A stretch of 64,000 nucleotides of DNA from Desulfuromonadales bacterium (lineage in GTDB: Bacteria; Desulfobacterota; Desulfuromonadia; Desulfuromonadales; Geopsychrobacteraceae), in the NCBI GenBank assembly GCA_019429255.1, contig JAHYIY010000010.1, positions 1-64,000 of the forward strand, in the 5' to 3' direction. Every line of letters starts with the position of its first letter. The first letter of the stretch is position 1. A program made the translations under genes and the position numbers. The notes beneath the pieces are model-generated. The model did not search any database and had not been told where the DNA came from. It was given only the letters and a program-made list of their open reading frames with translations. Shown one piece after another: positions 20,238 to 64,000 of this stretch.

Positions 20238-20349
20238 GATAGACCGATCAGCGAATTGGAGACGTCTGTAAAGAACGGCATAGCTATCATACCTTCGCAA
20301 CAGTTGTCAACACTCTGTTCGACGGTCGCCGGAGTTGCTATGGAAAGAC

Positions 20350-20796: not shown

Positions 20797-20833
20797 AGGC
20801 TTTCCCTTTTCATTTTCGTTAGCAGAAGCGTGC

Positions 20834-22762: not shown

Positions 22763-23419
22763 CTATTCGCTCTTTTTGACAATGCGCAGCAAGCATCTTT
22801 CAGCACCCGAAAAGGGAAGTTGGTATTTTATTCCACATATGGGAATATCGTACCAGCCTTGCCATTTGTTTTTAACAGCAAACAATTCTTCCTCCCCCTC
22901 TGGTCCCTTCATGGCGATCAGCATTCCGCCCGGTTTAATAACTGGTAAGGCCATCTTCAAGAGATCGTTCACATCGGCAACGGCCCGCGCAACCACTACA
23001 TCAAACCCCTGCCACGCTGGGTTGATCCTGGTTATTTCTTCAATGCGCGCACACTCGATCTCGAGGTTTTTTATTCTCAACAGTCTTTTTACGTGCTTCT
23101 GAAAGTTAATTTTTTTACCTACACTATCAAGGGAATAGAAGGTTTTCTGTGGCATCGCCAGGGCAAGGGGAATTACCGGGAGTCCGGCACCAGAGCCCAT
23201 ATCCAAAACTCGAAATTGGTCCCCCAACAATCCTACCAGTACCAGTGAGTCGAGCAGGTGCTTCTCGACAACTTCATCCATTGTTCTGATAGAAGTCAGG
23301 TTGATCTTGTCATTCCAACGCAACAACTCCTCGGCAAACAGTATCAGACGATCAACCAGTTGAACATCCACTCCGTCGATACCAAGAAGTCCTGCACCCC
23401 TTTTTAATCTATTTTTCAC
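22763..23419 (-). CDS. rsmG: 16S rRNA (guanine527-N7)-methyltransferase
   Basis: S-adenosylmethionine-dependent methyltransferase acting on helix 18 of 16S rRNA, 218 residues. RWNDKINLTSIR, VLDMGSGAGLPVIPLALAMP (AdoMet motif I), ARIEEI and DVVVARAVADVNDLLKMALPVIKPGGMLIAMKGP match the family. Start is GTG and overlaps the end of mnmG by 11 bases. Neighbour order mnmG-rsmG-parA is ancestral in bacteria. Confidence 0.95.
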   Translation of the reverse strand: MKNRLKRGAGLLGIDGVDVQLVDRLILFAEELLRWNDKINLTSIRTMDEVVEKHLLDSLVLVGLLGDQFRVLDMGSGAGLPVIPLALAMPQKTFYSLDSVGKKINFQKHVKRLLRIKNLEIECARIEEITRINPAWQGFDVVVARAVADVNDLLKMALPVIKPGGMLIAMKGPEGEEELFAVKNKWQGWYDIPICGIKYQLPFSGAERCLLRIVKKSE

Positions 23420-25283: not shown

Positions 25284-25297
25284 CCACCTACCATTAT

Positions 25298-25313
25298 TGT
25301 TTCACGTGAAACA
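25298..25313. promoter_or_regulatory. Consensus parS centromere site
   Basis: The 16-mer TGTTTCACGTGAAACA is the exact palindromic ParB-binding consensus. It occupies most of the 33-base gap between mnmG and mnmE, about 3.6 kb from parB and 3.8 kb from dnaA. No second copy was found in the window. Confidence 0.95.
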
Positions 25314-25316
25314 AAC

Positions 25317-26681
25317 CTACTTGCCAATACAAAAAGAAGAAAAAATATCATCAAGCACATCTTCTGTAGTAATGCTGCCGGTAACCCTTCCCAGGGAATC
25401 AAGAGCAGAGCGCAAATCAATTGAAAGAAGGTCAAGGTCGACAGATCCAAGGTTGTTAAGGAAGTTTTTTATCGAGGAGACTGACCCGGTCAGTGCTTCA
25501 TAGTGCCGGCGCTCGGTAATATAGGGTGATTCTGAGGAGGGAAGATAATCATTTAACAAAAAGGAGGCGATAGTATCAGTAAGAACATCAATACCATCAC
25601 CGAGCTTAGCAGAAACAGTAACGATAGGACCGGGGAAAAAAGAAAGGTCATGATGTTCCGACAGGAGATCTGACTTATTTACCACCAAAACAACAGGAAC
25701 GGCTGATAAATCCGCAAGAAGAGCCCTAAACTGATCGCACAAAGGTGCGGAACCGTCCAGCATTAGAAGAACCAAATTTGCAATCTTTACCACATTGCGC
25801 GCCCGCCGTACTCCTTCCTGTTCAACAAATTCATCGGAACTGCGCAAGCCCGCCGTATCGACAAGACGAACGTTAATTCCGCCTATCTGCGTTGACTGTT
25901 CTATCAGATCACGAGTGGTTCCAGGAACAGAAGATACAATGGATCGGTCTTGCTGGAGTAAAGCGTTCATAAGCGAACTTTTACCAGCATTAGGAAGTCC
26001 GGCAAGCACAACAGTAGCACCATCATGGACAAATTGTCCTGCACGATACGTATTCATTAGATCAGACATTTGAACATGAAGGTTTTCTGCAGTAGAAAAA
26101 AGTCGATCTAAATTTTCTGTTGGTAGATCTTCCTCAGGGAAATCTATCCAGGCTTCTGTTTGAACCAGAAGATTTTTTATAGTGGCAGAGTAGCTGTGTA
26201 ACTGTCGACTGAGTAAACCGTCAAGTTGTTGCAGAGCAGACCGTCGAGAAAACTCGGATGTAGACTGAATAAGACGAGAAACAGCTTCAGCCTGAACAAG
26301 GTCAATACGCCCATTTAGATACGCACGATAAGTAAATTCCCCAGGATTTGCCAACCGGATATCATTAGCATAAGCCAGTTGTAAAATCCTTCGTACTATC
26401 TGACGACTACCATGACAGTGTACCTCTACAACCGGTTCACATGTATAGGTGCGGGGAGGGTCCATGTATACAACCATTACTTCATCAATATCACTGTCGT
26501 CTTCATCAACAATCCGACCAAGATAAAGATAATGAGATTGGAAATTTTCTATCGGGTTTTTTGTCCGAAAAAAGGATTTTAAAAAGGACAATGCTCTGTA
26601 ACCTGATATGCGTATAACAGCGATACCAGATTCACTAACAGCGGTAGCAGGGGCAATAATAGTATCCTTATCAAGAATCAT
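25317..26681 (-). CDS. mnmE: tRNA modification GTPase MnmE
   Basis: GTPase partner of MnmG, 454 residues. The N-terminal folate-binding domain (DTIIAPATAVSESGIAVIRISG), helical middle, G domain with GLPNAGKSSLMNALLQ, GTTRD, DTAG and NKSD, and the C-terminal zinc/catalytic motif FCIGK are all present. The start is 11 bases from the end of yidC. The jag/khpB gene often found between yidC and mnmE is missing. G+C (about 45% in a sampled line) begins to fall here towards the origin. Confidence 0.96.
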   Translation of the reverse strand: MILDKDTIIAPATAVSESGIAVIRISGYRALSFLKSFFRTKNPIENFQSHYLYLGRIVDEDDSDIDEVMVVYMDPPRTYTCEPVVEVHCHGSRQIVRRILQLAYANDIRLANPGEFTYRAYLNGRIDLVQAEAVSRLIQSTSEFSRRSALQQLDGLLSRQLHSYSATIKNLLVQTEAWIDFPEEDLPTENLDRLFSTAENLHVQMSDLMNTYRAGQFVHDGATVVLAGLPNAGKSSLMNALLQQDRSIVSSVPGTTRDLIEQSTQIGGINVRLVDTAGLRSSDEFVEQEGVRRARNVVKIANLVLLMLDGSAPLCDQFRALLADLSAVPVVLVVNKSDLLSEHHDLSFFPGPIVTVSAKLGDGIDVLTDTIASFLLNDYLPSSESPYITERRHYEALTGSVSSIKNFLNNLGSVDLDLLSIDLRSALDSLGRVTGSITTEDVLDDIFSSFCIGK

Positions 26682-26691
26682 GATATGGCTA

Positions 26692-28278
26692 TCATGCCTT
26701 TTGTGCCTGACGACGAATCAACAATTGTTGAAGAATTGTCAGCAAGTTATTAACCAACCAGTAGATAACCAACCCGGCAGGAAAATTAAGAAAAAGGAAG
26801 GTAAAGATAATGGGCATCATCAGCATCACTTTTTCTTGTGTTGGATCAAGGTTGGTTGGCGTTAACTTTTGTTGTAAAAACATGGATGCACCCATGATAA
26901 CGGGAGTGATATAGTAGGGATCTTTGGCAGAAAGATCAGATATCCACAAAATAAAAGGTGCGTGCCGTAACTCTATAGAATCAAGAAGGACCTTATAAAG
27001 CGAGAAAAAAACCGGAATTTGAATCAAAATAGGTAAACAGCCGCCAAGAGGATTAACCTTATTATCACGGTAAAACGACATCATTTCTTGATTTAAGCGT
27101 TGTTTGTCATCAGCATATTTTTCTTTAAGTCTCTTCATTTCCGGCTGCAATTTCTGCATGCCCTGCATAGATTTATAGCTTTTATGCGTAAGGGGCCAGA
27201 AAATCAACTTTATGCATACAGTTAACAAAATAATAGAGAAGCCATAGTTATTGATATAGCCATTAAAAAAAAGAAGAACATTAAAAAGCGGTTTAGCGAG
27301 AAAATGAAAAAAACCGAAGTGAATAGCCTCCTCAAAAGAAGAATTGCTTGACGAAAGATATTCAAGATTTTTTGGACCAAGATAAGCAACATGCTGAAAA
27401 GATTTATTTTGCCCAGGTAAGAGAATAAAAGAGCTGGATGAAAATCTATTCTCAATAAAATCGGGTTCATAGCGTATCAAAACCTGATCTATGTTGCTGT
27501 TAGGATTAAGTACCTGTAAGAAATATTTATCAGTAAATCCCGACCAAACAAAGTCATTGTAAACAACTGAGTTTTTAACAATATCTTTTGGTTTATCTTC
27601 TTTTAATTTATTACCATCAAAAGTAAGTGGGCCTACAAAAGAATAGAAGTCCGATTTTTTATCAGTAGACCAGGGTGTAATTAATGAAATATTATATTTG
27701 CCGGCAAAGTGTTCTTGGTTGTTGTTTTGAATAGTAAAACTAGTATCAATATGGTAGGAGTTTTTATATAACGTAAATGTTTTAATAACAGAAAAACCAT
27801 TGTATTCTGATTGAAAAGTAAGAAGAAGAAAGTCATTTCCGTCGTCAAAGTTTTGATCTCCAATATCAACCAAAGTATAGAAAATATCTTCAGGTAAATT
27901 AAGACCATCTGAAATAAAAGATTTAAAAGAATATGTTTCAAAATTCTGAGAACTTAACAAATAAAAATTAGAGTTTTCACTATTATCATCGGCTTTATAA
28001 TCAGAAAAACTAATACTTTTTATAGATGCGCCTTTTGTAGAAAAGATAATGGTGTAAGTACCACTATTTATTTCAATCAATTTTTCTTCTATTGAATTTG
28101 AATAATCAGTAGAAACAAGTGATTCATTTTGTTTAACAAATGGGGGGTCCACTGCGGGTAAAGTAATATCTGTTGTTTTAACGGTGGGTTGTGGCAGTGG
28201 AGCAGGTGTAAAAAAAAGACTATAACCAGACCATAGCAGTATGATTAGAACGATAGCAATAATAGTTCTATTGTCCAT
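26692..28278 (-). CDS. yidC: Membrane protein insertase YidC
   Basis: Inner-membrane insertase acting with or without SecYEG. The 528-residue gram-negative form has an N-terminal anchor ([19 protein letters not shown]), a large periplasmic P1 domain and five C-terminal membrane segments with [49 protein letters not shown] and [20 protein letters not shown]. The start has AGGAT nine bases upstream; a longer frame begins within yidD without a site. Codon use is strongly AT-biased (15 G/C in a sampled 60-base line). Confidence 0.96.
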
Positions 28279-28537
28279 TATTTCGTATCCTAATTTTGTG
28301 ATGAGGGACCGGATCAAAACCACCGGGGTGGAATGGATGGCATTTGATAATCCTTATTAAGGAATAATACAAACCTTTAAATATTCCATGTATAATTAAT
28401 GCTTCACGTACATAGGAAGAACAAGAAGGATAAAAACGGCAGCAATTTTGTTTAAGGGGAGAGATTAGATATTTATAAATATCTATTAAGTAGATGAAAG
28501 GAAATACAAGTAATTTACTTGATCGAGAAAAGTTCAT
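28268..28537 (-). CDS. yidD: Membrane protein insertion efficiency factor YidD
   Basis: Small 89-residue accessory of the YidC pathway. The family signature is intact: [26 protein letters not shown] and [13 protein letters not shown] hydrophobic N-terminal helix associates with the membrane. The gene overlaps rnpA by 23 bases at its start and yidC by 11 at its end, so translation is tightly packed. Confidence 0.93.
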
Positions 28538-28847
28538 CTAATTCATTTTTTACAAAAATTGTGTTTTGTTTAGTAAAAGGGCGCCTTACAATCAAGACAA
28601 AATCAAAGTTTTTTAAATTATGCTGATTCAATCTAAAAAACTCTCTTAAAAACCGCTTAATATAGTTCCTCTTAACAGCATTGCCATTTTTCCGACTTAC
28701 AGTAAGACCAAGACGAGTAACACCTTCCAGGTTATGTTTAAATAAAAGAACAAAATGGGGTGATTTTTTTCTGCACCCCACTTTTTCCGTATACCTGAAA
28801 TCTCGCGGTTTAAGTAAACGATTTCTCTTAAGAAAAAAAAAGTTCAC
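28515..28847 (-). CDS. rnpA: Ribonuclease P protein component
   Basis: Basic protein subunit that with M1 RNA matures tRNA 5' ends. The RNR signature appears as [26 protein letters not shown]. The 110-residue frame opens with GTG immediately after the rpmH stop, followed by a run of phenylalanine codons. No better start lies nearby, so the exact N-terminus is uncertain. Strong A/T bias. Confidence 0.92.
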
Positions 28848-29000
28848 CTATTTTTTAGGAATGCTTGCCGCTAAGCATTTACGTCCCTGGGCACGGCGCC
28901 TGTTAATTGTGGCACGTCCATTTTTGGTTTGCATCCGCTTCCTAAAACCATGGGTACGTTTTCTTTTGATTCGACTAGGCTGAAAAGTTCTCTTCGACAT
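28848..29000 (-). CDS. rpmH: 50S ribosomal protein L34
   Basis: A 50-residue basic protein beginning [19 protein letters not shown] and continuing [22 protein letters not shown], the full L34 pattern, with a slightly extended tail (CLAASIPKK). ATG at 29000 follows GGAGATTATCT. First gene of the leftward rpmH-rnpA-yidD-yidC-mnmE-mnmG-rsmG run, divergent from dnaA. Confidence 0.97.
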
Positions 29001-29153
29001 AGATAATCTCCTAAAACTGACAAAAGATGAATTTTAGTTGTTTTTTATAAAAAGTCAATAAATTTTGTAAAAAAATTAGCTGGAAGGTAATAAAAAATAA
29101 ATATATAATACTGGGTCGATCTTAAATAAACATTAATAAAAAGAGTGGTAGAA
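29001..29153. other. rpmH-dnaA intergenic region, AT-rich
   Basis: The 153 bases between the divergent rpmH and dnaA genes are very AT-rich with A- and T-tracts. They must hold promoters for both directions. No perfect DnaA box was seen. It is a candidate for part of oriC because gene orientation switches here, but the dnaA-dnaN gap is an alternative. Confidence 0.45.
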
Positions 29154-30503
29154 ATGGAAAAATTTTGGCTTGAGGCTATTCATAGACTTAGTGACGAGAT
29201 AGGCGAGCAAAATAAAAAAACCTGGATAGAACCACTCATTTATTTAAGATGCACAGATGCTTTGTTAATCCTTGAGGCCCCAAATAGATTCATAAAAGAT
29301 TGGTTTATAGATAATTATCAAACAAAAATAGCTAAAAAGTTAAATGAAATAACTGGAAAAAAACTAAAAATTGAAATAAAAATCAATAAGAAAAATGAAA
29401 TTAAAAAAGAAGAAGAATATAAAACAGTAATAGATAATGATAAAAAACAGAAAATAGCTGAAAGAAAAGAAGAATCAATAAAAGTATCAAATATAAACCT
29501 TTTATATACTTTTGATACTTTTGTTTCAGGCCCATCAAATCAATTTGCCCATGCCGCTGCAATGGCTGTAGCTAAAAACCCCGCAACAACTTACAATCCT
29601 CTCTTTATATATGGCGGTGTTGGTCTAGGAAAAACTCATATTATACATTCAATAGGTAATGAAATATTGAAAAGTAATAGAAATTTGAATATTACTTATT
29701 ATTCTTCTGAAAAATTTACTAACGAACTTATAAATTCATTAAGACATGGAAGAATGGAAGAATTTAGAAATAAATTCAGAACTATTGATGTTTTATTAGT
29801 AGATGATATTCAATTTATTGCAGGAAAGAAAAGTACACAGGAGGAATTTTTTCATACATTCAATGCTTTATATGAATCACATAAACAAATTGTAGTAACA
29901 TCAGACAAATTTCCAAAGGAAATTCCTGATTTAGAAGAAAGGCTTAGATCAAGATTTGAATGGGGTCTTATAGCAGATATACAAGAACCAGATACAGAAA
30001 CAAAACAAGCAATATTAAAAATGAAGTCTGAAATAAATAATATAAATATTCCAGAAGATGTAATTTCGTTCCTAGCTAATTCTATAACAAGTAATGTTAG
30101 AGAATTAGAAGGTTATTTGATAAGAATTGGAGCGTATTCAAGTCTTACATCTACTCCAATAAATATAGATATGGCAAAAGACGTTCTCAAAAATATTATA
30201 ACTGAAAATAATAAAGAAATTACAATCGATAGAATTCAAAAAACAGTCGCTGAATACTATCAGATTAAAACCGCAGAAATTAAATCGCAAAAAAGATTGA
30301 AAAACATAGTGTTACCAAGACAAATAGCTATGTATATAAGTAGAAATATGACTAATTTATCTTATCCGGAAATTGGTGATAAATTTGGTGGAAAAGATCA
30401 CTCTACCATTATTCATGCAATTAAAAAAATTGAAGAAAAAATGGCTTCGGATATGAGTCTAAAAATGACTGTTGATAAATTGATGGAAAAGTTGTTGGGA
30501 TAA
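29154..30503 (+). CDS. dnaA: Chromosomal replication initiator DnaA
   Basis: AAA+ initiator, about 449 residues. Domain I (FWLEAIHRLSDEIGEQNKKTWIEPL), a Lys/Glu-rich linker (about 75-115), the ATPase with GGVGLGKTHIIHSIGNE, LLVDDIQFIAGK and the arginine-finger region RLRSRFEWGL, and domain IV with the DnaA-box signature GGKDHSTIIHAIKKIEEKM are all present. A GTG three codons upstream (29145) is an alternative start. Extremely AT-rich for its neighbourhood (11 G/C in a 60-base line), with AAA, AGA, ATA and TTA codons dominating. Confidence 0.97.
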   Translation: MEKFWLEAIHRLSDEIGEQNKKTWIEPLIYLRCTDALLILEAPNRFIKDWFIDNYQTKIAKKLNEITGKKLKIEIKINKKNEIKKEEEYKTVIDNDKKQKIAERKEESIKVSNINLLYTFDTFVSGPSNQFAHAAAMAVAKNPATTYNPLFIYGGVGLGKTHIIHSIGNEILKSNRNLNITYYSSEKFTNELINSLRHGRMEEFRNKFRTIDVLLVDDIQFIAGKKSTQEEFFHTFNALYESHKQIVVTSDKFPKEIPDLEERLRSRFEWGLIADIQEPDTETKQAILKMKSEINNINIPEDVISFLANSITSNVRELEGYLIRIGAYSSLTSTPINIDMAKDVLKNIITENNKEITIDRIQKTVAEYYQIKTAEIKSQKRLKNIVLPRQIAMYISRNMTNLSYPEIGDKFGGKDHSTIIHAIKKIEEKMASDMSLKMTVDKLMEKLLG

Positions 30504-30684
30504 TTTTTTAATAATGAATTTTTATAATATTTGTGTATAGAAAATTATTGTTAATTTATTTAAATTTACAATAATCATTAAATTTAGATGGTTTATAGAG
30601 ATATCAACATATAAACAGGCCCTACTATTACTATTTTAAAAGATATTAAATATAAAAGAAGTATTTCCTGTTGAGGAGTTTTTT
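30504..30684. other. dnaA-dnaN intergenic region, candidate oriC element
   Basis: 181 very AT-rich bases. TGTGTATAG (near 30532) differs from a DnaA box in one base, and ATATCAACA (near 30600) is a weaker match. ATTATTGT and ACAATAAT form an inverted repeat about 16 bases apart (around 30545-30577). Position between dnaA and dnaN is where several bacteria keep the unwinding region. The box count is low, so the assignment is tentative. Confidence 0.4.
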
Positions 30685-31788
30685 ATGGAATTTAAAATAC
30701 AAAAAGATACCTTTCTAAATGCTTTGTTTAGAATTCAAGGAATTGTAGATAAAAAACATACAATCCCAATACTTTCAAATGTATTTATTGAGGCATATGA
30801 TAATCAAATCATTTTATCAGCAACTGATTTAGAAATAGGTTTAAAAACTTGTTTTAAATGTGAAGTTAAAGAAAATGGTAAAATAACTATTTCTGCAAAA
30901 AAACTGTTTGAAATAATAAAAGAATTGCCAAATGATATTATAAATATAAAAGAAAAAAATAATTATTGGATTGAAATATCTTGTGGAAATTCTTTATTCA
31001 ATCTTGTTGGATTACCTCCAGATGAATTTCCAAAAATTCCAGAACAAAGTAATGATCTTATAGATTTTGACAGCAATATATTAAATAAAATGATTTATTC
31101 TACTGTTTTCTCAGTATCTAATGACGAAACAAAATTTAATCTTACAGGTATTTTTGTCAAATTTGATGATAATAAACTCAATTTTGCATCAACAGATGGA
31201 CATAGATTATCAGTTATAAGTAAAGAATTAAACTTTCAACTAAGTGAAAAATTTAAAAATGGTTTTATATTACCAAAAAAAGGAATAATAGAATTAAATA
31301 AAATAATTGATACTAATGGTAAAATGATAAAAATAGGTGTAACTGAAAATTTATTCAATTATGTTGATGAAAACACAACTTTTGTGATGAGAATGATAGA
31401 CGGTGATTTTCCTGACTATAAGAGAGTGATTCCAGAGAAAACTGATAACTACTCAACAATTGAAGTAAAGAAATTTACTGATGTACTTAAAAGAATATCT
31501 GTTCTTTCGAATGAAAAAACTAAAGGAGTAAAAATTAATATTTTTGATAATAAATTAGTGGTTTCATCTTCAAATCCTGATTTTGGAGATGCAAAAGAAG
31601 AGATGGATGTTGTTTATAAAGGAGATGATATTACTATAGGTTTTAATGCCAGATATATAATAGATATTCTCAATATTATAAATGAGGAAAAAATTAATTT
31701 TTATATAAAAGATAATATATCGCCAGGTATGATTATTCCCTTAAATAATGAAGAATATCTATCAGTCGTAATGCCTATGAGATTTTAG
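30685..31788 (+). CDS. dnaN: DNA polymerase III beta subunit (sliding clamp)
   Basis: Ring clamp giving processivity to the replicative polymerase, 367 residues in three repeated domains. FRIQGIVDKKHTIPILSNV opens domain 1, ATDLEIGL and ASTDGHRLSVI mark domain junctions, and the C-terminus V-M-P-M-R-F is the classic end. TGAGGAG precedes the ATG. Protein is ordinary, base composition is not: strongly AT-rich. Confidence 0.96.
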   Translation: MEFKIQKDTFLNALFRIQGIVDKKHTIPILSNVFIEAYDNQIILSATDLEIGLKTCFKCEVKENGKITISAKKLFEIIKELPNDIINIKEKNNYWIEISCGNSLFNLVGLPPDEFPKIPEQSNDLIDFDSNILNKMIYSTVFSVSNDETKFNLTGIFVKFDDNKLNFASTDGHRLSVISKELNFQLSEKFKNGFILPKKGIIELNKIIDTNGKMIKIGVTENLFNYVDENTTFVMRMIDGDFPDYKRVIPEKTDNYSTIEVKKFTDVLKRISVLSNEKTKGVKINIFDNKLVVSSSNPDFGDAKEEMDVVYKGDDITIGFNARYIIDILNIINEEKINFYIKDNISPGMIIPLNNEEYLSVVMPMRF

Positions 31789-31792
31789 TTCA

Positions 31793-35244
<3,452 letters not shown>

Positions 35245-35287
35245 CCATCACTTGAAAAAGGCTTCCGCCGGAAGCTTGGAGGAATAG

Positions 35288-37810
35288 ATGATCCAAGAAC
35301 AAAATAAGGTATCGGTAAATATTGTCGATGAGATGCGCAAGTCCTATATGGATTATGCCATGAGCGTCATTGTCGGCCGGGCGCTGCCGGATGTTCGTGA
35401 TGGGCTTAAGCCGGTCCATCGTCGCATTCTGTTTGCCATGCACGATCTCGGTAATGATTTTAATAAGCCCTATAAAAAATCAGCACGGGTTGTTGGTGAT
35501 GTCATCGGTAAATATCATCCCCATGGAGACAGTGCGGTCTACGACTCCATCGTCAGGATGGCCCAGCATTTTTCTATGCGCCACCCACTGGTGGATGGCC
35601 AGGGGAATTTCGGCTCGGTCGATGGTGATTCGGCAGCGGCCATGCGTTATACCGAAATTCGTATGGATAAAATGGCTCATGAGTTACTCGCAGACATCGA
35701 CAAGGAGACCGTCGATTTTGGCCCCAACTATGATGAATCCCTTGAAGAACCCCTGGTATTACCCTGTAAATATCCCAACCTGCTGGTCAACGGCTCAGAG
35801 GGAATCGCGGTTGGGATGGCAACAAAGATTCCACCGCACAATCTCGGTGAGGTGATCGACGGTCTGATTGCCGTTATTGATGATCCGCGTCTTGGTGTAG
35901 AAGAGTTGATGGATATCATTCATGGGCCGGATTTTCCCACGGCCGGATTTATCAATGGTAAGGAGGGTATCCGCGAGGCGTACAAAACCGGTCGCGGCAT
36001 TGTTCAAATGCGCTCGCGTGCCATGGTAGAGGTTGATCGGCGCAGTGGGCGCGAAGCCATTGTGGTGACGGAAATTCCCTACCAGGTCAATAAAGCCCGG
36101 CTGATTGAAAAAATAGCTGAGTTGGTCAAAAACAAGAAAATTGAAGGCATTTCCGATCTGCGCGATGAATCGGACCGGGATGGCATGCGGATTGTCATCG
36201 AACTGAAAAAAGACATGGTCGCTGGTGTTGTGCTTAATCAGCTTTACAAGATGACGGCGATGCAGTCTTCTTTCGGCATTATTATGCTGGCCATCGTCAA
36301 GGGACAACCAAAAATTCTGACGTTACGCGAAGTTCTCGATAATTTTATCGATCACCGCCGTGAAATTGTTACCCGCCGCTGTATCTTTGAACTGAAAAAA
36401 GCCGAAGCTCGTGCGCACATTCTGCAGGGATTAAAAATCGCCCTTGAACATCTCGATGAAGTGATAGAGCTTATCAAAGGCAGTGCCAACTCACCGGAAG
36501 CCAAGAGTCGCCTGATGGAGCGCTTTGCTTTTACTGATATCCAGGCACAAGCTATTCTGGACATGCGTCTGCATCGCTTGACCGGCCTTGAAAGGGATAA
36601 GATCCTTGAGGAGTTGGCGCAGGTTCTGGCGCAGATTGACCGGCTTAAAGAAATCCTCGCCAGCGAAGTTGAAATTCTCAACATCATTAAGCAGGAGCTG
36701 CTTGAAGTTAGAGAAAAATTTGCCAACGCCAGACGTACCGAAATCATCGATCGTACCGCTGATCTGACCCTGGAAGATATGATTGTTGAAGAAGACATGG
36801 TGGTAACCGTTACCCATAGTGGCTATATCAAGCGCAATGCGGTTTCCCTCTATCGGGCGCAGCGACGGGGCGGCAAGGGGCGCAGCGGTATGCGCACCAA
36901 GGACGAAGATTTTGTCGAGAATCTTTTCATCGCTTCAACCCATTCCTATATTCTGATTTTTACCAACCTCGGCAAGCTGTATTGGCTGAAGGTTCATGAG
37001 GTACCACAGGGCGGCATGGCCTCGCGCGGCAAGGCAATTGTCAACCTGCTTGAACTGGCGCCGGATGAAAAGGTCACGACCATTCTGCCGGTGAAAAAGT
37101 TCGAGGAAGGGCGCTACATTGTTACTGCTACTGCTCGTGGAATTATCAAAAAAACCGACCTGATGGCTTATTCCCATCCACGCAGCGGTGGTATTATTGC
37201 CCTGACCATCGATGAGGGGGATAGCCTGATCGAGGCACGCCTGACCGACGGCAACCGCGATCTTATTCTCGCCAGCAGCAACGGCAAATCGATCCGCTTC
37301 CCGGAAACCAATATCCGCTCCATGGGGCGGACAGCACGTGGCGTACGCGGCATTACTCTGGATCCGGATGATGAAGTTGTCGGATTGCAATCGGTAACCG
37401 ACAGCACCGCCATGGCACTGGTAACGATTACCGAGAATGGTTACGGAAAGCGAACCGATATTGCCGAATATCGTGTACAAAGTCGTGGAGGCAAAGGGAT
37501 TATTACCATCAAAACCAGCCGGCGTAATGGCCGGGTCGTGGCAATCAGGATGGTAGACGAAGATTCCGATCTGATGTTTATCACCAATCGCGGAAAAATG
37601 CTGCGCACCAATGTGCGCAATATCCGCTCCATCGGCCGCAATACGCAAGGGGTGCGGATGATGGTCCTCGAGGCGGATGAACTTATTGTTTCTGTGGCAA
37701 TGCTGGCGGAAAAGGATTCAGTCGATGAGTCTGGAGAAATTGAAGAAGCAATTGAGGCAGGACTTGAAGCAGGACCTGAAGCCCCGGAAGGCGACGAAGA
37801 GCAGGAATAA
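35288..37810 (+). CDS. gyrA: DNA gyrase subunit A
   Basis: Breakage-reunion subunit, 840 residues. [42 protein letters not shown] and the catalytic tyrosine in [10 protein letters not shown] are present. The C-terminal beta-pinwheel carries the GyrA box QRRGGKG, identifying gyrase and not topoisomerase IV. The tail is acidic (Glu/Gly/Ala-rich). That tail is encoded by DNA that also codes the basic N-terminus of the next gene in another frame, an 86-base overlap. GGAGGAATAG precedes the start. Confidence 0.97.
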
Positions 37811-38621
37811 TCTATTCAAGCTATCGATATTGTTCATGATTGTGTTGTTGGTCGGGGCCATCGGCTACGTAAAATGGCAAGGCTATCTTTTTTCCGAACC
37901 ACAACGTCTATTGACCAGAGGAGTGAAGCAGGAAAGCCTGGGGCGTTCGACAGAAGCTCTGGCCAGGTATCGACAGATTATCACGCAATATCCACAGGAG
38001 TCTGTTGCCCCCGAGGCACTCTATCGTATGGCGCGGCTTTGGCATTTTGATCTGCAGAATCCACAACAGGCTTTACTGAAATACCTGCAGTTGGAGCGTG
38101 ACTACACCGATAGCAGCCATATTCAGCAGGCCCGCGAAGCCGCCGCTCGTATCGTTAAAATTGATCTGGGAGACGATATCCAGGCGATTGGCTATTATCA
38201 ACGCCTGCTTGACAATAGGCAGGGGACTCTCGATCAATATCTGTACGAGATTGCTGACAGCTACTTTCGCCTGGAAAACTATCCGCAGGCGCGGATTGAA
38301 CTGGAGAATCTGCTGTCAACATATCCCGACAGTTCCTTGATTCCAGAGGCTCTTCATCGCAAAGCCACGATTCTGGTGCTTGAAAACCGCACGGACGAAG
38401 CTTATCAGGATTGGCGTCAGTTGGTTGAGGATTTTCCCGACAGTGGTTATGCCGGAAGGGCACGTTTTAATCTGGCCTCAATGCTGGAGGAAAAGGGGGA
38501 ACTGGAATCGGCACTGGCGGAGTACCGCAGTTTGGAAAATTATCCACGACCATTGTTGCTGGAACAGAAAATCGATCATTTAACACGACGCATCCAAAAC
38601 AGAAATGAGGGGTTGGAATGA
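37725..38621 (+). CDS. Membrane-anchored TPR protein
   Basis: 298 residues: a Lys/Arg-rich cytoplasmic start, one membrane helix (about 30-48, [17 protein letters not shown]) and six or so tetratricopeptide repeats of the YbgF/BamD style ([29 protein letters not shown], with later copies ending in P-D-S). Likely a periplasmic scaffold. The chosen ATG has AAAGGA eight bases upstream and lies inside gyrA. Its stop overlaps gpsA (ATGA). Function unknown; genomic neighbours do not define it. Confidence 0.8.
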
Positions 38622-39625
38622 ATACCAGAATAGCAGTAGTTGGCGCAGGCAGCTGGGGCACAACCCTTGCAAATCTACTGGCGGAAAAGAATCTGTCCGT
38701 TACCCTTTGGTGTTTTGAAAAAGACCTGGCGCAGCGAATGCAGACAACCAGGATAAACGACCTCTATCTCCCAGGCATTTCCCTGTCGCACAACCTGAAG
38801 ATAACCGATGATCTTGGCGAAGCCGTCAGTGAAGCCTCTTTTGTTATCTATGTCACGCCGTCACAGGTGTCGCGCCAGGTACTGCGTCAGTCACTACCAG
38901 CCTTAAGGGCTGATGCTGTTATCGTCTCCGCTTCGAAGGGGATAGAAAACGACAGTTTGCAGCTGCTTTCCCAGGTGTTTGACAATGAACTTCCCACAGG
39001 GTTGAAGCGGTCCGTGGTTTTTCTCTCCGGGCCTTCTTTTGCCCGCGAGGTCAGTCAGCATATGCCGACCGCAGTGGTTGCTGCCGGTTATGAACCAGCG
39101 GCTGCTGAGGCTGTGCAACAGCTCTTCAGTACCCCGGTATTTCGGGTCTATACCCACCACGACATTGTCGGGGTTGAGCTGGGCGGCGCTATGAAAAACG
39201 TTATTGCCCTGGCGGCCGGGGTCGCCGATGGTTTAGGTTTTGGGTACAATACTCGCGCCGCCCTGATTACCCGGGGGCTGGCGGAAATGACACGCATGGG
39301 GGTCAAGCTTGGGGCCGACCCGACAACCTTTGCCGGTCTGGCTGGTATGGGGGATCTGGTGCTGACCTGTACCGGCGACTTATCGCGGAATCGCAGTGTT
39401 GGTATAGAGCTAGGCAAGGGGCGCTCCCTCGAAGAGATTCTGGCGGGAATGAACATGGTCGCAGAGGGTGTTAAAACCACCCTATCAGCCTATCAATTGG
39501 CACAAAAACTGGGGGTGGATGTTCCCATTATCGAACAAACCTACTTGATCCTTTATCAGGATAAAGATCCGCGTCAGGCGGTAACTGATTTGATGTTGCG
39601 CGACCTCAAAGCGGAAAAAATTTAA
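38618..39625 (+). CDS. gpsA: Glycerol-3-phosphate dehydrogenase [NAD(P)+]
   Basis: Makes sn-glycerol-3-phosphate from dihydroxyacetone phosphate for phospholipid synthesis. The 335-residue enzyme shows [36 protein letters not shown] and the catalytic region [36 protein letters not shown], then [21 protein letters not shown]. Translationally coupled to the TPR gene. Confidence 0.96.
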
Positions 39626-39656
39626 ACTGATACGGATTACAGACAAAGGAGCACCC

Positions 39657-40226
39657 ATGAGGATTCTGATAACATTTATACTGCTGATGTGGTTTGCAAG
39701 CGGCAGCCTGTTTGCTGCTACCCTGGTTGAGATGAAAACCAGCCACGGAGCAATTCAGATTGAACTGTATCCAGAGCAGGCCCCAAAAACAGTAGAAAAC
39801 TTTCTTCATTACGTCGATCAGGGATTCTATGATGGAACGGTTTTTCATCGTGTCATTAAAGGATTCATGATTCAGGGGGGCGGCTTTGACGAGCAAGACC
39901 GCCAAAAGGAAACTGCAGCGCCGATCCGTAATGAAGCCGGCAACGGACTGAAAAACCGCGCTGGTAGCTTGGCAATGGCACGCACCAGCCAGGTTGATAG
40001 CGCCACCAGTCAGTTTTTTATCAACCTGACTGACAACGACTTTCTTAACCATCGTGGCAGAACCCCTAACGTTTTTGGCTATGCGGTTTTTGGCCAGGTG
40101 GTTGGGGGGATGGATGTAGTTGAAACAATCGGTAAACAAAAGACTTACAACCGCAATAACCTCTTTCAGGATTATCCCGAACGTCAGATAATCATTGAAA
40201 GTATTCGTAGAATTGATACATTGTAG
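39657..40226 (+). CDS. Periplasmic peptidyl-prolyl cis-trans isomerase (cyclophilin)
   Basis: A 189-residue cyclophilin with a signal peptide ([18 protein letters not shown], cleavage near AA-T), so it folds periplasmic proteins (PpiA-like). [38 protein letters not shown] and [26 protein letters not shown] carry the catalytic Arg and the Phe, Gln and Met contacts. AGGAGCACCC precedes the start. It lies 31 bases after gpsA and is probably cotranscribed with it. Confidence 0.93.
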
Positions 40227-48008: not shown

Positions 48009-48023
48009 GCTTCGAGACGATCG

Positions 48024-48172
48024 TAACTATTCAGCGCTATCCTTGCGCAGGGCCTTTGGATCCTGTGGCAAGGGTTTTTGTCGCCATGGACGGCGACAAA
48101 AAGCGGTCATGGAAGACCCAACGGGAAACAATCGCGTCCCTTGACATAGGATTCAAAGGCCCGGTGCTGAAC
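48024..48172 (+). repeat. Dispersed repeat A, copy 1
   Basis: 149 bases almost identical (about 93-95% by eye) to the reverse complement of 57692-57841. Ends carry a short inverted repeat TTCAGC/GCTGAA. Inside, TTTTTGTCGCC and GGCGACAAAAA form a perfect 11-bp hairpin. One frame stays open in both copies and continues into arsS-flanking DNA as an ATG-started frame (48005). Confidence 0.85.
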
Positions 48173-57691: not shown

Positions 57692-57841
57692 GTTCAGCAC
57701 CGGGCCTTTGAATCCTCTGTCAAGGGACGCGATTGTTTCCCGTTGGGTCATCCATGACCGCTTTTTGTCGCTGTCCATGGCGACAAAAACCCTTGCCACA
57801 GGATCCAAAGACCCTGTGCAAGGATAGAGCTGAATAGTTAC
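57692..57841 (-). repeat. Dispersed repeat A, copy 2
   Basis: 150 bases, inverted relative to copy 1 at 48024-48172 and almost identical to it. Same terminal TTCAGC/GCTGAA and same perfect inner hairpin (TTTTTGTCGCC/GGCGACAAAAA). The inner frame (DPVARVFVAMD, KKRSW, TQRETIASLD, GFKGPVLN) is open in both copies. Confidence 0.85.
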
Positions 57842-57857
57842 ATATAAATATAAAAGT

Positions 57858-57909
57858 ATCGGTAAAACTTATCAGAGTGTGAGCTGTGTTACATTCTGTC
57901 TTTACCGAT
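57858..57909. repeat. Inverted repeat upstream of the AhpD-like gene
   Basis: ATCGGTAAA (57858-57866) and TTTACCGAT (57901-57909) are perfect 9-bp arms 34 bases apart, about 100 bases before the AhpD-like start. May be an operator pair or an RNA stem. Confidence 0.4.
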
Positions 57910-58009
57910 CTCGTTAGCATTAAGTACAAGGGTTGTTTAAGGAGGCGATGGTTAACCCAAAGAGCTGTCGTTGAGGTTTTATTAATGACGCTTCGACAAA
58001 GGAGGTTTT

Positions 58010-58537
58010 ATGAGTCGAATTCGTACCATTGATGTTCAGGAAGGATCTGCATACGTTACTTCTATTCTAAAGGAAATTCATCAAGCGTTTGGCTATGTTC
58101 CCCATCTGTTTTCAACTTATGCCCATCATCCGCCGCTGCTCGAAGCCAACTGGAACAAGGTGAAACGGGTGATGATGGAAGGTGACCTGTCGCGCAAGAC
58201 CAAAGAGGCCATCGCCCTGCTGGTATCGCAGGACAATGGCTGTAACTACTGTGTTGCCGCCCATACCGGTGCTTTGCAGATGATCGGGCTCAGCGACGAA
58301 GAGATCGAAAAAATATCCTCGCAACTGGACGCTGCCGATTTTTCTGAACTGGAGCGATCCCTGATCCGCTTTGCCCGTAAAGCCAACAGCGACCCCCACC
58401 GGGTCAGCGATGAAGAATTTCAGGCGCTTAAAGCGACCGGCGCGACAGATGCACAGATTGTCGAGGCTTTGGGTGTCATGGAGGTGTTTACTGCTTTTAA
58501 TAAATTCCTTGACGTCTTGCAGGTAGATTTGGGGTAG
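58010..58537 (+). CDS. AhpD-like carboxymuconolactone decarboxylase-family protein
   Basis: 175 residues, all-helical. The redox motif C-x2-C with downstream His in NGCNYCVAAHTGAL, together with upstream E-A-I-A-L-L-V-S, matches peroxidase-related AhpD proteins (alkylhydroperoxidase family). A near-perfect AAAGGAGG precedes ATG. Lies 88 bases upstream of a membrane flavin reductase, which could be its electron source. Confidence 0.88.
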   Translation: MSRIRTIDVQEGSAYVTSILKEIHQAFGYVPHLFSTYAHHPPLLEANWNKVKRVMMEGDLSRKTKEAIALLVSQDNGCNYCVAAHTGALQMIGLSDEEIEKISSQLDAADFSELERSLIRFARKANSDPHRVSDEEFQALKATGATDAQIVEALGVMEVFTAFNKFLDVLQVDLG

Positions 58538-58625
58538 CTTGCAAGAAGATTTTAAGCAGGGGAAACACCCTCATTTGATAAAAGTACCAGATGATCGGCG
58601 AGCACCTTGCTGCCGGGAGGAAACT

Positions 58626-60767
58626 ATGGGTTTTTTGGGAAAAAAAGGAATTATTGTTGCTGTCGTTGTGGTTCTGATCGGGCTCTTTTTTGTGTTTGAT
58701 CTGCATCATTTTCTGACCTTGGCGGAGCTGAAAACACGGCAGGAGGCCTTTCACCAGTTTTATCTGGCGAATCGTCTGGTGACCCTGGGAACCTATTTTT
58801 TGCTTTATATTGTCGTCACCGCCTTGTCGCTGCCCGGCGCAACCGTCATGACCCTGGCCGGCGGTGCCCTGTTCGGTTTCTGGTCGGCGCTGATCGTTGT
58901 GTCTTTCGCCAGTACCATCGGCGCGACTCTGGCCTTTCTGGTCAGTCGTTTTCTGTTACGTGACTGGGTTCAGGGGAAGTTTGGCGAACGTCTGAAGGCC
59001 CTCAATGACGGCATTGCCAAAGAGGGGGGATTCTATCTGTTTACCTTGCGGTTGGTGCCCCTGTTTCCTTTCTTTGTCATCAATCTGGTCATGGGTTTGA
59101 CCCCGATGCGCACCTGGACCTACTACTGGGTCAGCCAGATCGGCATGCTGGCTGGTACCGCTGTTTACGTCAACGCCGGCACCCAGCTTGGTCAGATCGA
59201 GAGTCTGGGCGGAATTCTCTCACCCGGGCTACTCTTTTCATTTGTCCTGCTCGGAGTTTTCCCCCTGCTTGCCCGTAAAGGAGTTGATATGCTTCAGAAG
59301 CGCAAAAGCCTGAAGAGTTTCCCCAAGCCAACATCCTTCGACTACAACATTGTCGTCCTTGGGGCCGGATCCGCCGGTCTGGTCAGTTCTTATATCGCTG
59401 CGGCGGTGAAGTCGAAAGTCGCCCTGATTGAGCGCGACAAGATGGGAGGCGATTGCCTGAATACCGGCTGTGTACCGAGTAAAGCTCTGATCCGGTCGGC
59501 TAAAATTCTTAACTATGGCCGCCGAGCCAGTGAGTTTGGCTTGCGCCGCACGGATATCAATTTTGATTTTTCCGAGGTGATGGAGCGGGTGCAGCAGGTC
59601 GTAACCAAGGTTGAACCCCATGATTCGGTAGAACGCTACACTGATCTCGGGGTTGATTGTATTAAAGGCGAAGCGCGTATCACCTCGCCTTATACGGTGG
59701 AAGTGAACGGCCGCACCCTGACCACCCGTAACATTATCGTCGCGACCGGAGCTACCCCCTTTGTGCCACCGATCCCGGGGCTGGATCAGGTCGATTATCT
59801 GACCTCGGACAACCTCTGGCAGTTACGGGAATTACCAAAGCGTCTGGTGGTGCTCGGCGGTGGTCCCATCGGTTGTGAAATGACGCAAGCCTTCGCCCGA
59901 TTTGGTGCGCAGGTGACCCAGGTTGAGATGGCTCCCCATATTATGGGGCGGGAGGATGCGGATGTCGCCGAATTTGTCCGTGAACGGTTTGTCACTGAGG
60001 GGGTGCAGGTTCTGACCAGTCACGCAGCTAAAGAGGTGGTTGTCAGGGGCGAAGACAAACTTCTGGTTTGTGAGCACCAGGGAGAACGGGTGGAGATCCC
60101 CTTTGACCAATTGCTGGTTGCCGTCGGCCGCAAGGCGCGGGTGGCCGGGTTTGGCCTGGAAGATCTGGGCGTCCGACTGAACGACCGTGGTACAGTTGAC
60201 GTCGATCCCTTCATGCGCACCAACATCCCCAATATCTTCTGTGCCGGTGATGTTACCGGCCCCTATCAGTTTACCCATACCGCCGCGCACCATGCCTGGT
60301 ATGCTGCCGTCAACGCGTTGTTTGGCGATGTTAAGAAGTTCCGCGTTGATTATCGCGTCATCCCCTGGTGTACTTTTACCGATCCCGAGGTTGCCCGCGT
60401 TGGCCTCAATGAAGCCGACGCCCGTGCCCAGGGAATCCCTTATGAAGTCACCCGTTTTGAGCTGGAAGAGCTCGATCGCGCCATCGCCGAAGAGGAAACC
60501 CACGGCTGGGTCAAGGTTATCACCCCACCTGGCAAGGATAAAATCCTTGGTGTCACCATTGTTGGTACTCACGCCGGTGATCTGATTGCAGAATATATCC
60601 TGGCGATGAAGCACGGTCTGGGCTTGAACAAGATTCTTGGCACCATCCACCCCTATCCGACCCTGGCCGAAGCCAACAAGATGACGGCCGGTGAGTGGAA
60701 ACGAGCCCATGCCCCGGAAAAACTGCTGGCCTGGCTGGAGAAATATCACGCCTGGCGGCGGGGGTGA
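58626..60767 (+). CDS. VTT membrane domain fused to a mercuric-reductase-like flavoprotein
   Basis: 713 residues. Residues 1-225 form a TVP38/TMEM64 (VTT/DedA-like) membrane domain (LSLPGATVMTLAGGALFGF, TIGATLAFLVSRFL, RLVPLFPFFVINLVMGL). Residues 235-713 are a pyridine nucleotide-disulfide reductase: FAD loop VLGAGSAGLVSSY, redox pair GGDCLNTGCVPSKALI, NAD loop VLGGGPIGCEM, FCAGDVTG, and dimer motif TIHPYPTLAEANKM. It lacks the MerA C-terminal Cys pair, so mercury is not the substrate. AGGAGGAA... reads GGGAGGAAACT before the chosen ATG. Confidence 0.92.
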   Translation: MGFLGKKGIIVAVVVVLIGLFFVFDLHHFLTLAELKTRQEAFHQFYLANRLVTLGTYFLLYIVVTALSLPGATVMTLAGGALFGFWSALIVVSFASTIGATLAFLVSRFLLRDWVQGKFGERLKALNDGIAKEGGFYLFTLRLVPLFPFFVINLVMGLTPMRTWTYYWVSQIGMLAGTAVYVNAGTQLGQIESLGGILSPGLLFSFVLLGVFPLLARKGVDMLQKRKSLKSFPKPTSFDYNIVVLGAGSAGLVSSYIAAAVKSKVALIERDKMGGDCLNTGCVPSKALIRSAKILNYGRRASEFGLRRTDINFDFSEVMERVQQVVTKVEPHDSVERYTDLGVDCIKGEARITSPYTVEVNGRTLTTRNIIVATGATPFVPPIPGLDQVDYLTSDNLWQLRELPKRLVVLGGGPIGCEMTQAFARFGAQVTQVEMAPHIMGREDADVAEFVRERFVTEGVQVLTSHAAKEVVVRGEDKLLVCEHQGERVEIPFDQLLVAVGRKARVAGFGLEDLGVRLNDRGTVDVDPFMRTNIPNIFCAGDVTGPYQFTHTAAHHAWYAAVNALFGDVKKFRVDYRVIPWCTFTDPEVARVGLNEADARAQGIPYEVTRFELEELDRAIAEEETHGWVKVITPPGKDKILGVTIVGTHAGDLIAEYILAMKHGLGLNKILGTIHPYPTLAEANKMTAGEWKRAHAPEKLLAWLEKYHAWRRG

Positions 60768-60816
60768 ACCGGGGGTGGCTCAAAACCGGTTAACCCTTGT
60801 TAGTGCCTGAACAAAG

Positions 60817-60973
60817 TTGATGGCGTCGCAAAAACTCACCAGCTGCTGCGTTGCCGCCATCGGCTCACTGCTTCGACGTAGGTAAGTACTCCTCATTGTT
60901 CAATAATGGCGCTCCTTGCATATGGCGTTTTTAGCCTATCATCCAACCTGATGTTTTTTTGCGAAAGCATCAA
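60817..60973 (-). repeat. Dispersed repeat B (MITE-like), copy 2
   Basis: 157 bases with TTGATG/CATCAA ends. The reverse complement aligns with 40255-40413 throughout. It sits between the flavoprotein gene and the DUF547 gene, ending 36 bases before the latter's start. Confidence 0.75.
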
Positions 60974-61008
60974 CGTTGATCTGTAGAAATAACCTTGTGG
61001 AGGAACGT

Positions 61009-61875
61009 ATGCGTTTTTTGCACTGGTTGTATCCGGTGTTGGTTTTTTTGGTGGTGATGGTTTTTTCAGCAACGGCCGGTGTTGCTGAAGACAATAGTGA
61101 ATTAGAAGGGCTCTATGCCCCCTATGCCGAGATACTGCAGCGTTTTGTCGTGGAAAAAGATCTGCCGGGAGGTGGCCTGGTATCAGCCTTTAACTATGAA
61201 AAAGCCCTCGCTGACAGTGATACGTTCGCATTGTTGAATCAGCAAAAAGCTAACCTGGCCGAGTTTGATCCCGGTAACCTGACGGAAAAATATCAATCCA
61301 TCGCCTTCTGGCTGAATGCCTATAATTTTTTCATGATCGAACATCTTCTGACCCATCCCCTTAAAGGACAGCTGGTCGCTTCCGTCTGGGATTATGGCGG
61401 GCGCTATAATCCCTTAAAAAAGCACGTTTTTGAGCTGGAGTTGTTCACTGTCGGCGGTAAAAAATACAGCCTGAGTGCCATCGAAAAAGATATTCTGCTC
61501 GGTAGCGAGTACCAACGCAAGGGGTGGAAGGACGCCCGCGTTCATTACGCGGTCAACTGTGCATCGGTCGGCTGTCCGCCCTTAAGAAAACACCTTTATA
61601 CCCCAACCAACACCAATGATCTGATGACGGCCAACACGGTTCGTGCATTCAAGACCCAACGCCAGTTACACATTGACGGGCGCACCCTGATGCTGTCCGA
61701 ATTGTTCAAATGGTACGCAGATGATTTTATTGAAGCGGCCGGCAGTATTCGTCAATTTATCAAAGCCTATACCGATGAAGAACGTCATCCGCAGATCGAT
61801 CAGACCGATCGGATAGGTTACATCGATTACGACTGGTCCCTGAACAGACCGGAAAATTTCAGCGAATTCAGATAA
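61009..61875 (+). CDS. DUF547-containing exported protein
   Basis: 288 residues: signal peptide (LYPVLVFLVVMVFSATAGVA) and DUF547 (YQSIAFWLNAYNFFMIEHLL, WDYGGRYNPLKKHVFELELFTVGGKKYSLSAIEKDIL, DARVHYAVNCASVGCPPLRKH). The Asn-Cys and Cys-Pro-Pro residues are family hallmarks, consistent with a papain-like active site, but activity is unproven. DUF547 genes often neighbour VTT or mercuric-reductase-like genes, as here. GGAGGAACGT precedes the start. Confidence 0.88.
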   Translation: MRFLHWLYPVLVFLVVMVFSATAGVAEDNSELEGLYAPYAEILQRFVVEKDLPGGGLVSAFNYEKALADSDTFALLNQQKANLAEFDPGNLTEKYQSIAFWLNAYNFFMIEHLLTHPLKGQLVASVWDYGGRYNPLKKHVFELELFTVGGKKYSLSAIEKDILLGSEYQRKGWKDARVHYAVNCASVGCPPLRKHLYTPTNTNDLMTANTVRAFKTQRQLHIDGRTLMLSELFKWYADDFIEAAGSIRQFIKAYTDEERHPQIDQTDRIGYIDYDWSLNRPENFSEFR

Positions 61876-61932
61876 GCCTAGGTCATAAGACCATGAACCG
61901 GTTGATGTGCGTTTAAGAGGGAGGGTTTTATC

Positions 61933-62817
61933 ATGGGATCTCATCACAAGACGGCTCTTATTTTTGCCGGTGGTGGCAGTCTTGGCGCCATTCAGGTCGG
62001 CATGCTCAAGGCCCTGGCTTTCCATGGTGTTCAGCCCGATTTACTGGTTGGTTCATCCGTCGGCGCGATCAACGCCGCCTACTTTGCCGCCGACCCTTCG
62101 CCTCAGGGGGTTGCGGGGCTCGAAGCAATCTGGCGTAGCCTGACCCGGGATGAGGTATTCCACTACTCCTGGTTTGGTGTATTAAGAAGCCTCTTAAGTA
62201 AACGAACCCATCTTTTTGATGAAAAAGTCTTTCTCCAGTTTCTGTCCAGACGTTTGCCTTACTGTGATTTTCAGGAAGCGACGGTACCGATTCATATTGT
62301 TGCCAGCGATTTTGTCAGCGGCGAAGAGGTGGTGCTTGAGCGCGGGGACATTCTTTCCGCCTTGCTGGCCAGCGCCGCTATTCCCGGGGTTTTCCCCCCG
62401 GTTAAGATTGACGGTCGCTACCTGATTGATGGTGGAGTGGCTAATCACACTCCGGTTTCAACCGCCATCAGGCTCGGTGCAACGCGTCTGATTGTCCTGC
62501 CGACCGGCTTTACTTGTGAGCCGGTTTTGCCTCCTACGGGCGCCCTGAGTATCGCCTTGCACGCGTTAAATCTGATTATTGCCAGGCAATTGCTACAGGA
62601 TCTGGAAGGCCATCGGGATCAGGCCAAGATTGCGGTTGTGCCCCCCTTATGTCCCTTGCGTACCAATCCCCTCAATTTTCAAGCGGCCGGAGCTCTGATT
62701 GATGACGGGTTTGCTGCGACGACAAGCTGGCTGGAGCAGGATGGTCTGAATAGGTGTTCTTCTTTTGAGTGCCTCAAACAACATCTTCATTCACCTCAGG
62801 ATACAGCCTCTGTCTGA
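61933..62817 (+). CDS. Patatin-like phospholipase
   Basis: 294 residues. The oxyanion loop GGGSLGAIQVGML, nucleophile GSSVGAINA (Ser near 39), and catalytic Asp in DGGVANHTP constitute the complete Ser-Asp dyad. No signal peptide, so cytoplasmic or membrane-associated, resembling RssA/YchK-type proteins. GGGAGGG precedes the start. Same strand as the DUF547 gene, 57 bases apart. Confidence 0.92.
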   Translation: MGSHHKTALIFAGGGSLGAIQVGMLKALAFHGVQPDLLVGSSVGAINAAYFAADPSPQGVAGLEAIWRSLTRDEVFHYSWFGVLRSLLSKRTHLFDEKVFLQFLSRRLPYCDFQEATVPIHIVASDFVSGEEVVLERGDILSALLASAAIPGVFPPVKIDGRYLIDGGVANHTPVSTAIRLGATRLIVLPTGFTCEPVLPPTGALSIALHALNLIIARQLLQDLEGHRDQAKIAVVPPLCPLRTNPLNFQAAGALIDDGFAATTSWLEQDGLNRCSSFECLKQHLHSPQDTASV

Positions 62818-62874
62818 AAAAGCTGATGAGGCGATGAAGCAATAGCACCTGGAATCCGTTGCACAGGAGAAATC

Positions 62875-63102
62875 ATGATGACAATTTATATCAGTGTGGC
62901 CGTCTTGCTGGGTCTGGCATATTTTCGCGTTCAGCTGTGGCTCTGGTCGCTGATTCTGGTGGTCGGCATCACTGTGCTTGCCTACGCCTGGGGCGCACCC
63001 GCCGGCATCAGCGTTGGGGTAGCGGCTGTTGCGGCGGTGGCTGCGGTGCTTCTTAATGTGCGTCCACTGCGGCGCGAGGTGCTGACCAGACCGCTGTTTT
63101 AA
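62875..63102 (+). CDS. Orphan FadE-type N-terminal membrane segment
   Basis: 75 residues with two or three hydrophobic helices and the ending NVRPLRREVLTRPLF. This order matches the N-terminal membrane region of FadE-type acyl-CoA dehydrogenases, where the same Arg-rich motif (R-P-L-R-x-x-x-L-T/S-x-P) leads into the catalytic domain. Here a TAA stop follows at once and no dehydrogenase sequence is found downstream. ACAGGAG precedes the ATG, so it is translated well. Either a remnant or a stand-alone small membrane protein. Confidence 0.65.
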   Translation: MMTIYISVAVLLGLAYFRVQLWLWSLILVVGITVLAYAWGAPAGISVGVAAVAAVAAVLLNVRPLRREVLTRPLF

Positions 63103-63305
63103 GTTGACCTACTCTTATATCTATCAGACCCGCCAGTCAGTTTGATACCCAGAACGATAACCAAACTTATGGTTTATTGAGTTTGGCCTGGTCTTTTTAA
63201 TCATTGGCATGAATGATGTGGCTGTCGACGTGACAGTCTCCACTAGGGGGCCATGCCTGACGGTTGATTTTCATTAAGCGCATTCAACTTCCAGGGAGTT
63301 ATTAC
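63103..63305. other. Intergenic region before the symporter gene
   Basis: 203 bases. CCAAACT...AGTTTGG (about 63159-63192) is a 7-bp hairpin followed after five bases by TCTTTTT, a possible terminator for the FadE-like segment. No homology to acyl-CoA dehydrogenase was seen in any frame. Confidence 0.45.
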
Positions 63306-64000
63306 ATGGATTACGTTCTTCCCGCTTTTGCCGGTTTTGTCGCTCTGGCTTCGGTCGTGCTCTCGCCTCGCGCCGAGAGTGAAGGTGCCTTCTACCAGGG
63401 CCTTGGTGCCAACGGCAGTCAACCGGGTCTGCTGAGTCTGACCTTTTCCCAGGTCACCACCTGGATTTTTGCCCGCTCGCTGATGAACGCCGCCATTCTC
63501 GGTTTCTATTACGGCATCTGGGGCACGCTGGCCTATGCGTTCTATTACTTCTCATTTCTGACCGGTGGCAAGATCGTTGACAGCTTACGCTTCGAACATG
63601 GCTTTCACAGTGTTCAGGATTTTCTGCGCTCCCGTTTTGGTCGTTGGGGAACGGGTTGTTACAATTTTGTCATCGGTATTCGTCTGATCAGTGAGGTGTT
63701 TGCCAACCTTCTTGTTATCGGCATTTTGTTTGGTGTCGCCGGCAGTCAGGCCTATACGCTGACCATTATCGGCTTCTCGGCGGTTACTCTGCTATATTCA
63801 ATGCTCGGAGGCTTAAGTGCCTCATTACGCACCGATGTATTTCAGATGGTCATTTTTCTCGGAACATTGCTGATGCTGTTAGCTCTGGTGGTTGGTAGCC
63901 AGGCTGTGCAGTTGCAGGATCTCTGGTTCAAGCCGTTTGTTTTTGATCAACCCGGACCGGTCCTGATGCTGGTGGCGCTGCTGCAGGTCTGGAGTTATCC
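63306..64000 (+). CDS. Sodium:solute symporter family protein (3' end outside window)
   Basis: The frame is open from ATG at 63306 to the window edge (231 codons). It has six or more membrane helices with the LeuT-fold SSS pattern: LLSLTFSQVTTWIFARSLMNAA, GIRLISEVFANLLVIG, ITVLYSMLGGLSASLRTDVFQMVIFL-type segment (read as AVTLLYSMLGG, SLRTDVFQ). The G-G-x-x-A-x-x-x-T-D-x-x-Q block is the family marker. AGGGAG lies seven bases before ATG. Solute unknown. Confidence 0.85.
   Translation, partial: MDYVLPAFAGFVALASVVLSPRAESEGAFYQGLGANGSQPGLLSLTFSQVTTWIFARSLMNAAILGFYYGIWGTLAYAFYYFSFLTGGKIVDSLRFEHGFHSVQDFLRSRFGRWGTGCYNFVIGIRLISEVFANLLVIGILFGVAGSQAYTLTIIGFSAVTLLYSMLGGLSASLRTDVFQMVIFLGTLLMLLALVVGSQAVQLQDLWFKPFVFDQPGPVLMLVALLQVWSY

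Follow-up and report, generated by a model that had tools for sequence, protein, structure and literature searches.

A 75-codon open reading frame in a Desulfuromonadales bacterium is very probably the start of fadE, cut off at a rearrangement junction

In a Desulfuromonadales bacterium (family Geopsychrobacteraceae; assembly GCA_019429255.1, here termed G000), a 75-codon open reading frame (ORF) lies between genes coding for a patatin-like phospholipase and a sodium:solute symporter. It is located near the end of the stretch of DNA analyzed, the first 64,000 nucleotides of contig JAHYIY010000010.1 (the window). The ORF begins with ATG at position 62875, is preceded by AGGAG at 62865-62869 with five-base spacing, and ends with TAA at 63100-63102. 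Reading these signals in the sequence confirmed the original prediction of a well-initiated gene, and its placement between a patatin gene upstream (PF01734) and a symporter gene downstream (PF00474) was likewise borne out. The start region is intact, and the frame is uninterrupted, with 0 internal stops and 0 indels over its 75 codons. A promoter scan of positions 61800 to 63400 found one promoter-like site, on the opposite strand (0.9 expected from shuffled sequence), along with 3 terminator-like sites (2.1 expected). The product is hydrophobic, with 19-residue Kyte-Doolittle means of up to about 2.1, and has a basic C-terminal part. An alignment of FadE N termini revealed the N-terminal hydrophobic part of FadE and its basic LTRPLF-type junction in the ORF, which, judged by hydropathy, encodes the putative membrane part of this enzyme. 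When searched alone, the ORF matched the NCBIfam family FadE_coli (NF038187) weakly (E of 0.0051, residues 2 to 74 on profile positions 2 to 70). In Pfam, no family scored over its cutoff for the 75 residues, and they gave no match to the N, middle, and C domains of acyl-CoA dehydrogenases (PF02771, PF02770, and PF00441). The location of FadE within the cell is little known in Escherichia coli, according to a review (PMC9329746).

To place the ORF among its relatives, we compared it with other genomes, of which G001, G002, and G003 belong to the same genus. At an E value of ≤0.01, the 75 residues matched 7 of 60 genomes, G000 included (G000, G003, G028, G001, G007, G045, and G050, the last two being marginal with E of about 0.003). 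The closest nonself match was in G003, with 97% identity over all 75 residues (E of 2.4e-39), which bears out the predicted likeness to the N terminus of FadE. This match lies inside an 825-codon open frame that encodes a FadE of 809 residues without a stop and with four Pfam domains (PF02771, PF02770, PF00441, and ACDH_C [PF09317]). In G003, fadE directly follows the same patatin gene as in the window, and the gene order on contig C16 (14,921 bases) is that of the window: two genes which we take, from their sequences alone, to be AhpD-like and DedA/pyridine-nucleotide-oxidoreductase-like, followed by DUF547, patatin, and FadE. Scanning named genomes with the full G003 FadE yielded 188 relatives, among them a 100% match in Pelovirga terrestris strain M08fum, and G003 is most likely this strain. 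The neighbors on the 3′ side of fadE in G003 differ from those in the window.

TABLE 1 Coordinates of features in the window around the 75-codon ORF
Feature	Position	Strand	Basis or remark
Dispersed 151-bp repeat	57692..57842	+	First base is the left edge of the high-identity block; inverted copy at 48023-48172
Block 97.6% identical to G003 contig C16, gapless, 5409 bases	57692..63100	+	Alignment; right end is the junction
DUF547 gene	61009..61875	+	PF04784, E of 1.4e-21; upstream neighbor common to G003
Patatin-like phospholipase gene	61933..62817	+	PF01734, E of 8.4e-33; directly 5′ of intact fadE in G003
Probable fadE 5′ remnant (codons 1-75 of an 809-codon gene)	62875..63102	+	97% amino acid identity to the start of G003 FadE; 3/75 codons differ
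Rearrangement junction, fadE codon 75/lpxR codon ~313	63100..63101		120-base query splits in G003
lpxR-type 3′ remnant (residues ~313-343 plus stop), frameshifted	63101..63200	+	tblastn of G003 LpxR, two frames
Sodium:solute symporter gene, runs beyond the window end	63306..64000	+	PF00474, E of 4e-5 (in-window part)

Homology to the G003 fadE ended at position 63100, right after codon 75. When a 120-base query centered on this point was searched against G003, its first 60 bases matched fadE at 100% and its last 60 bases matched the end of an lpxR gene at 83%. That gene, whose product belongs to Pfam LpxR (PF09982, E of 7.6e-105), is located about 8.8 kb from fadE on the same contig and strand, before the symporter. 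Among 4 genomes of the genus, the query found matches in 2 and was unbroken in G000 only. The TAA of the ORF spans the junction: its T (T63100) derives from fadE and its two A's (A63101-A63102) derive from lpxR. The end of the frame is an accident of the junction. The window symporter (91% amino acid identity to that of G003) follows the lpxR stub just as its counterpart follows lpxR in G003. Overlap with the G003 lpxR sequence before the join was not more than a base or so. A break caused by a local repeat was rejected, since no direct repeat was found in a search of positions 62900 to 63400. The original prediction had considered a relic left by a deletion of 2 kb, and only the relic part of this proposal held, through the intact fadE of G003. 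A simple in-place deletion of that size was rejected, because the DNA after the break is the tail of lpxR and not the 3′ end of fadE. Moreover, lpxR and the symporter gene lie upstream of the shared block in G003 and downstream of it in the window, and one simple deletion does not account for the G003 gene order. It had also been proposed that an intact fadE at this place in close relatives would point to a simple pseudogene; G003 has such a gene with regard to its upstream side, but the rearrangement has left a different downstream side.

A search for the full gene in the rest of the genome, as suggested with the original prediction, found none. The G000 assembly comprises 2.74 Mb in 61 contigs and is 99.93% complete, with contamination estimated at 0.15%. 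ACDH_C (PF09317) was not found anywhere in it at an E value of ≤0.001, E. coli being found among 14 control genomes in the same search. Besides the ORF, the G003 FadE gave two matches only in G000, at 31 to 32% identity, both on contig C8 and both leaving the N-terminal part uncovered; these are generic acyl-CoA dehydrogenases. In the absence of both ACDH_C and a close FadE, an intact fadE elsewhere in G000 was rejected. The loss extends further than a 2-kb deletion would suggest, as G000 also lacks close relatives of FadI and FadJ. For the FadJ of G001, the best G000 match reached 42% (residues 11 to 204, in a 276-codon frame), and another reached 33% (residues 382 to 587) in a 747-codon frame, the type of which occurs in G001, G002, and G003 as well. 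For the FadI of G001, the sole match was at 35%. G000 thus keeps some enzymes of the fatty-acid type, and it is the members of the fadE-fadI-fadJ operon that were not found in it.

The state of this operon varied among the relatives. G001 has fadE, fadI, and fadJ whole and in that order. G003 has FadJ (73% identity to that of G001), but its FadI (C12) is reduced to residues 1 to 43 and about 392 to 440, and a short tandem repeat made of the end of fadE and the start of fadI runs across the boundary of the two genes at a contig end. The assembly may have a share in this, fadE and fadI being located on separate contig ends with a shared end of 127 bases. No FadE match was found in G002 (84% complete). 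Its region, largely collinear with the window, has another deletion at the same place, where an incomplete DUF547 gene is joined directly to the second half of the gene found after the symporter in the window. In G028 (80% complete), from another genus of the same family, the FadE frame is broken at 221 codons (C221), and the start of the same symporter gene, with 98% identity over 96 amino acids, lies about 5 kb after this broken fadE. Judged from these arrangements, the region around fadE seems prone to breakage and exchange, and the operon looks as if it had been eroded stepwise within the genus, being whole in G001, gutted of fadI in G003, and reduced to the start of fadE in G000.

We consider it very probable that the ORF is a pseudogene fragment, the start of fadE left after a rearrangement. 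It would be an ordinary gene remnant, because G003 keeps the whole fadE beside the same upstream neighbors. An intact fadE (809 amino acids long in G003, the nearest relative, and with fadI and fadJ after it in G001) would have been broken after codon 75 and joined to the lpxR tail standing before the symporter gene, and the remaining fadE together with the associated fadI and fadJ would have been lost, although the order and type of these events can be proposed only tentatively. The rearrangement may have been a tandem-duplication junction, a translocation then followed by deletion, or an import of already rearranged DNA.

The ORF lies at the right end of a block with unusually high identity to G003 (Table 1). 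Four comparison stretches over window positions 20001 to 40000 matched G003 at 73, 77, 79, and 82% (E of ≤1e-80), and just left of the block identity was 76 to 79%. Right of the junction, it was 96 to 100% in four 100-column windows from about position 63200, then 73 to 95% to about 64500 and 55 to 74% beyond. The left edge of the block coincides with the first base of a dispersed 151-bp repeat, of which there were at least 42 matches in G000 and at least 43 in G003 and, among the scored candidates, none in G004 and G007. As single-stranded DNA this repeat folds better than shuffled sequences (z of -4.8). An Rfam family for it was rejected, since nothing in the window, repeat included, passed the Rfam gathering thresholds (0 matches), and the repeat resembles a REP- or MITE-like element specific to the genus. 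Another dispersed repeat, some 160 bp long (60816-60974), has copies at least in G000, G001, G002, and G003.

The block would most likely stem from DNA recently exchanged with a strain similar to P. terrestris, and a chimeric assembly is less likely. If the join at 63100/63101 were itself chimeric, the organism would carry at this place either the intact fadE gene or no sequence of fadE. The contrast between the 97.6% identity of the block and the 73 to 82% of other window stretches would suit such a misjoin, as would the left edge of the block in a many-copy repeat, a usual place for misjoins, and the division of the assembly into 61 contigs. However, the right junction lies outside repeats and has an overlap with the G003 lpxR of at most a base or so, identity to G003 is also high on its far side, and the contamination estimate is low. 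Furthermore, the lpxR stub carries a frameshift of its own, and the C-terminal part of fadE was not found elsewhere in G000. Taken together, an assembly artifact is improbable, and we infer that the junction is biological.

Since a clean frame with an intact start is also what a kept gene would show, we considered the second proposal of the original prediction, an independent membrane peptide. Stand-alone copies in relatives, the other check suggested, were searched for across 136 genomes of the order, using a profile built from an alignment of six FadE N termini (E of ≤0.001), which very divergent anchors could escape. The FadE N terminus was matched in 16 of these genomes: 14 times in frames of at least 754 codons, once in the 221-codon frame of G028, and once in the window. 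No other 75-codon copy was found among the 136 genomes, the shortest other frame being that of 221 codons. Six of the 14 long-frame matches start at model position 43 or later, and those that cover the hydrophobic part itself lie in eight long frames, in G028, and in the window. When named genomes were scanned with the 75-residue ORF, the 591 pattern matches included 0 confirmed relatives, an uninformative negative, as the P. terrestris contig was also missed. In the scan with the full G003 FadE, which favors long copies, each of the best 80 of the 188 relatives had a match that started no later than residue 70 and extended at least to residue 748 of the 809; the neighboring genes were inspected in two of them. 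The accessible portions of the literature on FadE, membranes, truncation and pseudogenes, Pelovirga terrestris, and Desulfuromonadales contained nothing on the present locus.

Compared with G003, the ORF has a nucleotide identity of 98.7%, with 1 silent and 2 replacement codon changes, too few to test selection. The corresponding numbers were 14 and 9 for the patatin gene, 38 and 14 for the DedA/oxidoreductase-like gene, and 12 and 16 for the DUF547 gene, and the AhpD-like gene had 0 codon changes (100% identity over 525 bases). Given the 98.7% identity, the ORF would show no decay because little time has passed since divergence. That a truncated anchor, born at the junction, was kept as a functional small membrane peptide after loss of the enzyme is hardly credible: its intact start, uninterrupted frame, hydrophobic stretches, and basic C-terminal part are outweighed by the lack of a second copy in the order, by a frame end set by accident, and by codon changes that give no sign of constraint but are too few for a test. 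As a leader and ribosome-binding site survive, the hydrophobic peptide of 75 amino acids may still be produced, but it is presumably without function, there being no sign of any activity.

With the ORF read as a remnant of fadE, the locus illustrates how a gene stump can take the form of a tidy, well-initiated small ORF, and it documents the apparent stepwise loss of the fadE-fadI-fadJ beta-oxidation operon within one genus. Compared with known FadE enzymes (NF038187, NF009586, and NF007000, with PF09317 as the C-terminal domain), the ORF shares the N-terminal hydrophobic part and the basic junction but lacks all catalytic and C-terminal domains. Truncated-gene pseudogenes at rearrangement junctions are a generally established kind. 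The present locus does not differ from them in any substantive way: the remainder of the gene was not found, homology stops abruptly within the gene, the junction creates the stop codon, and the stub of a second gene lies on its other side.
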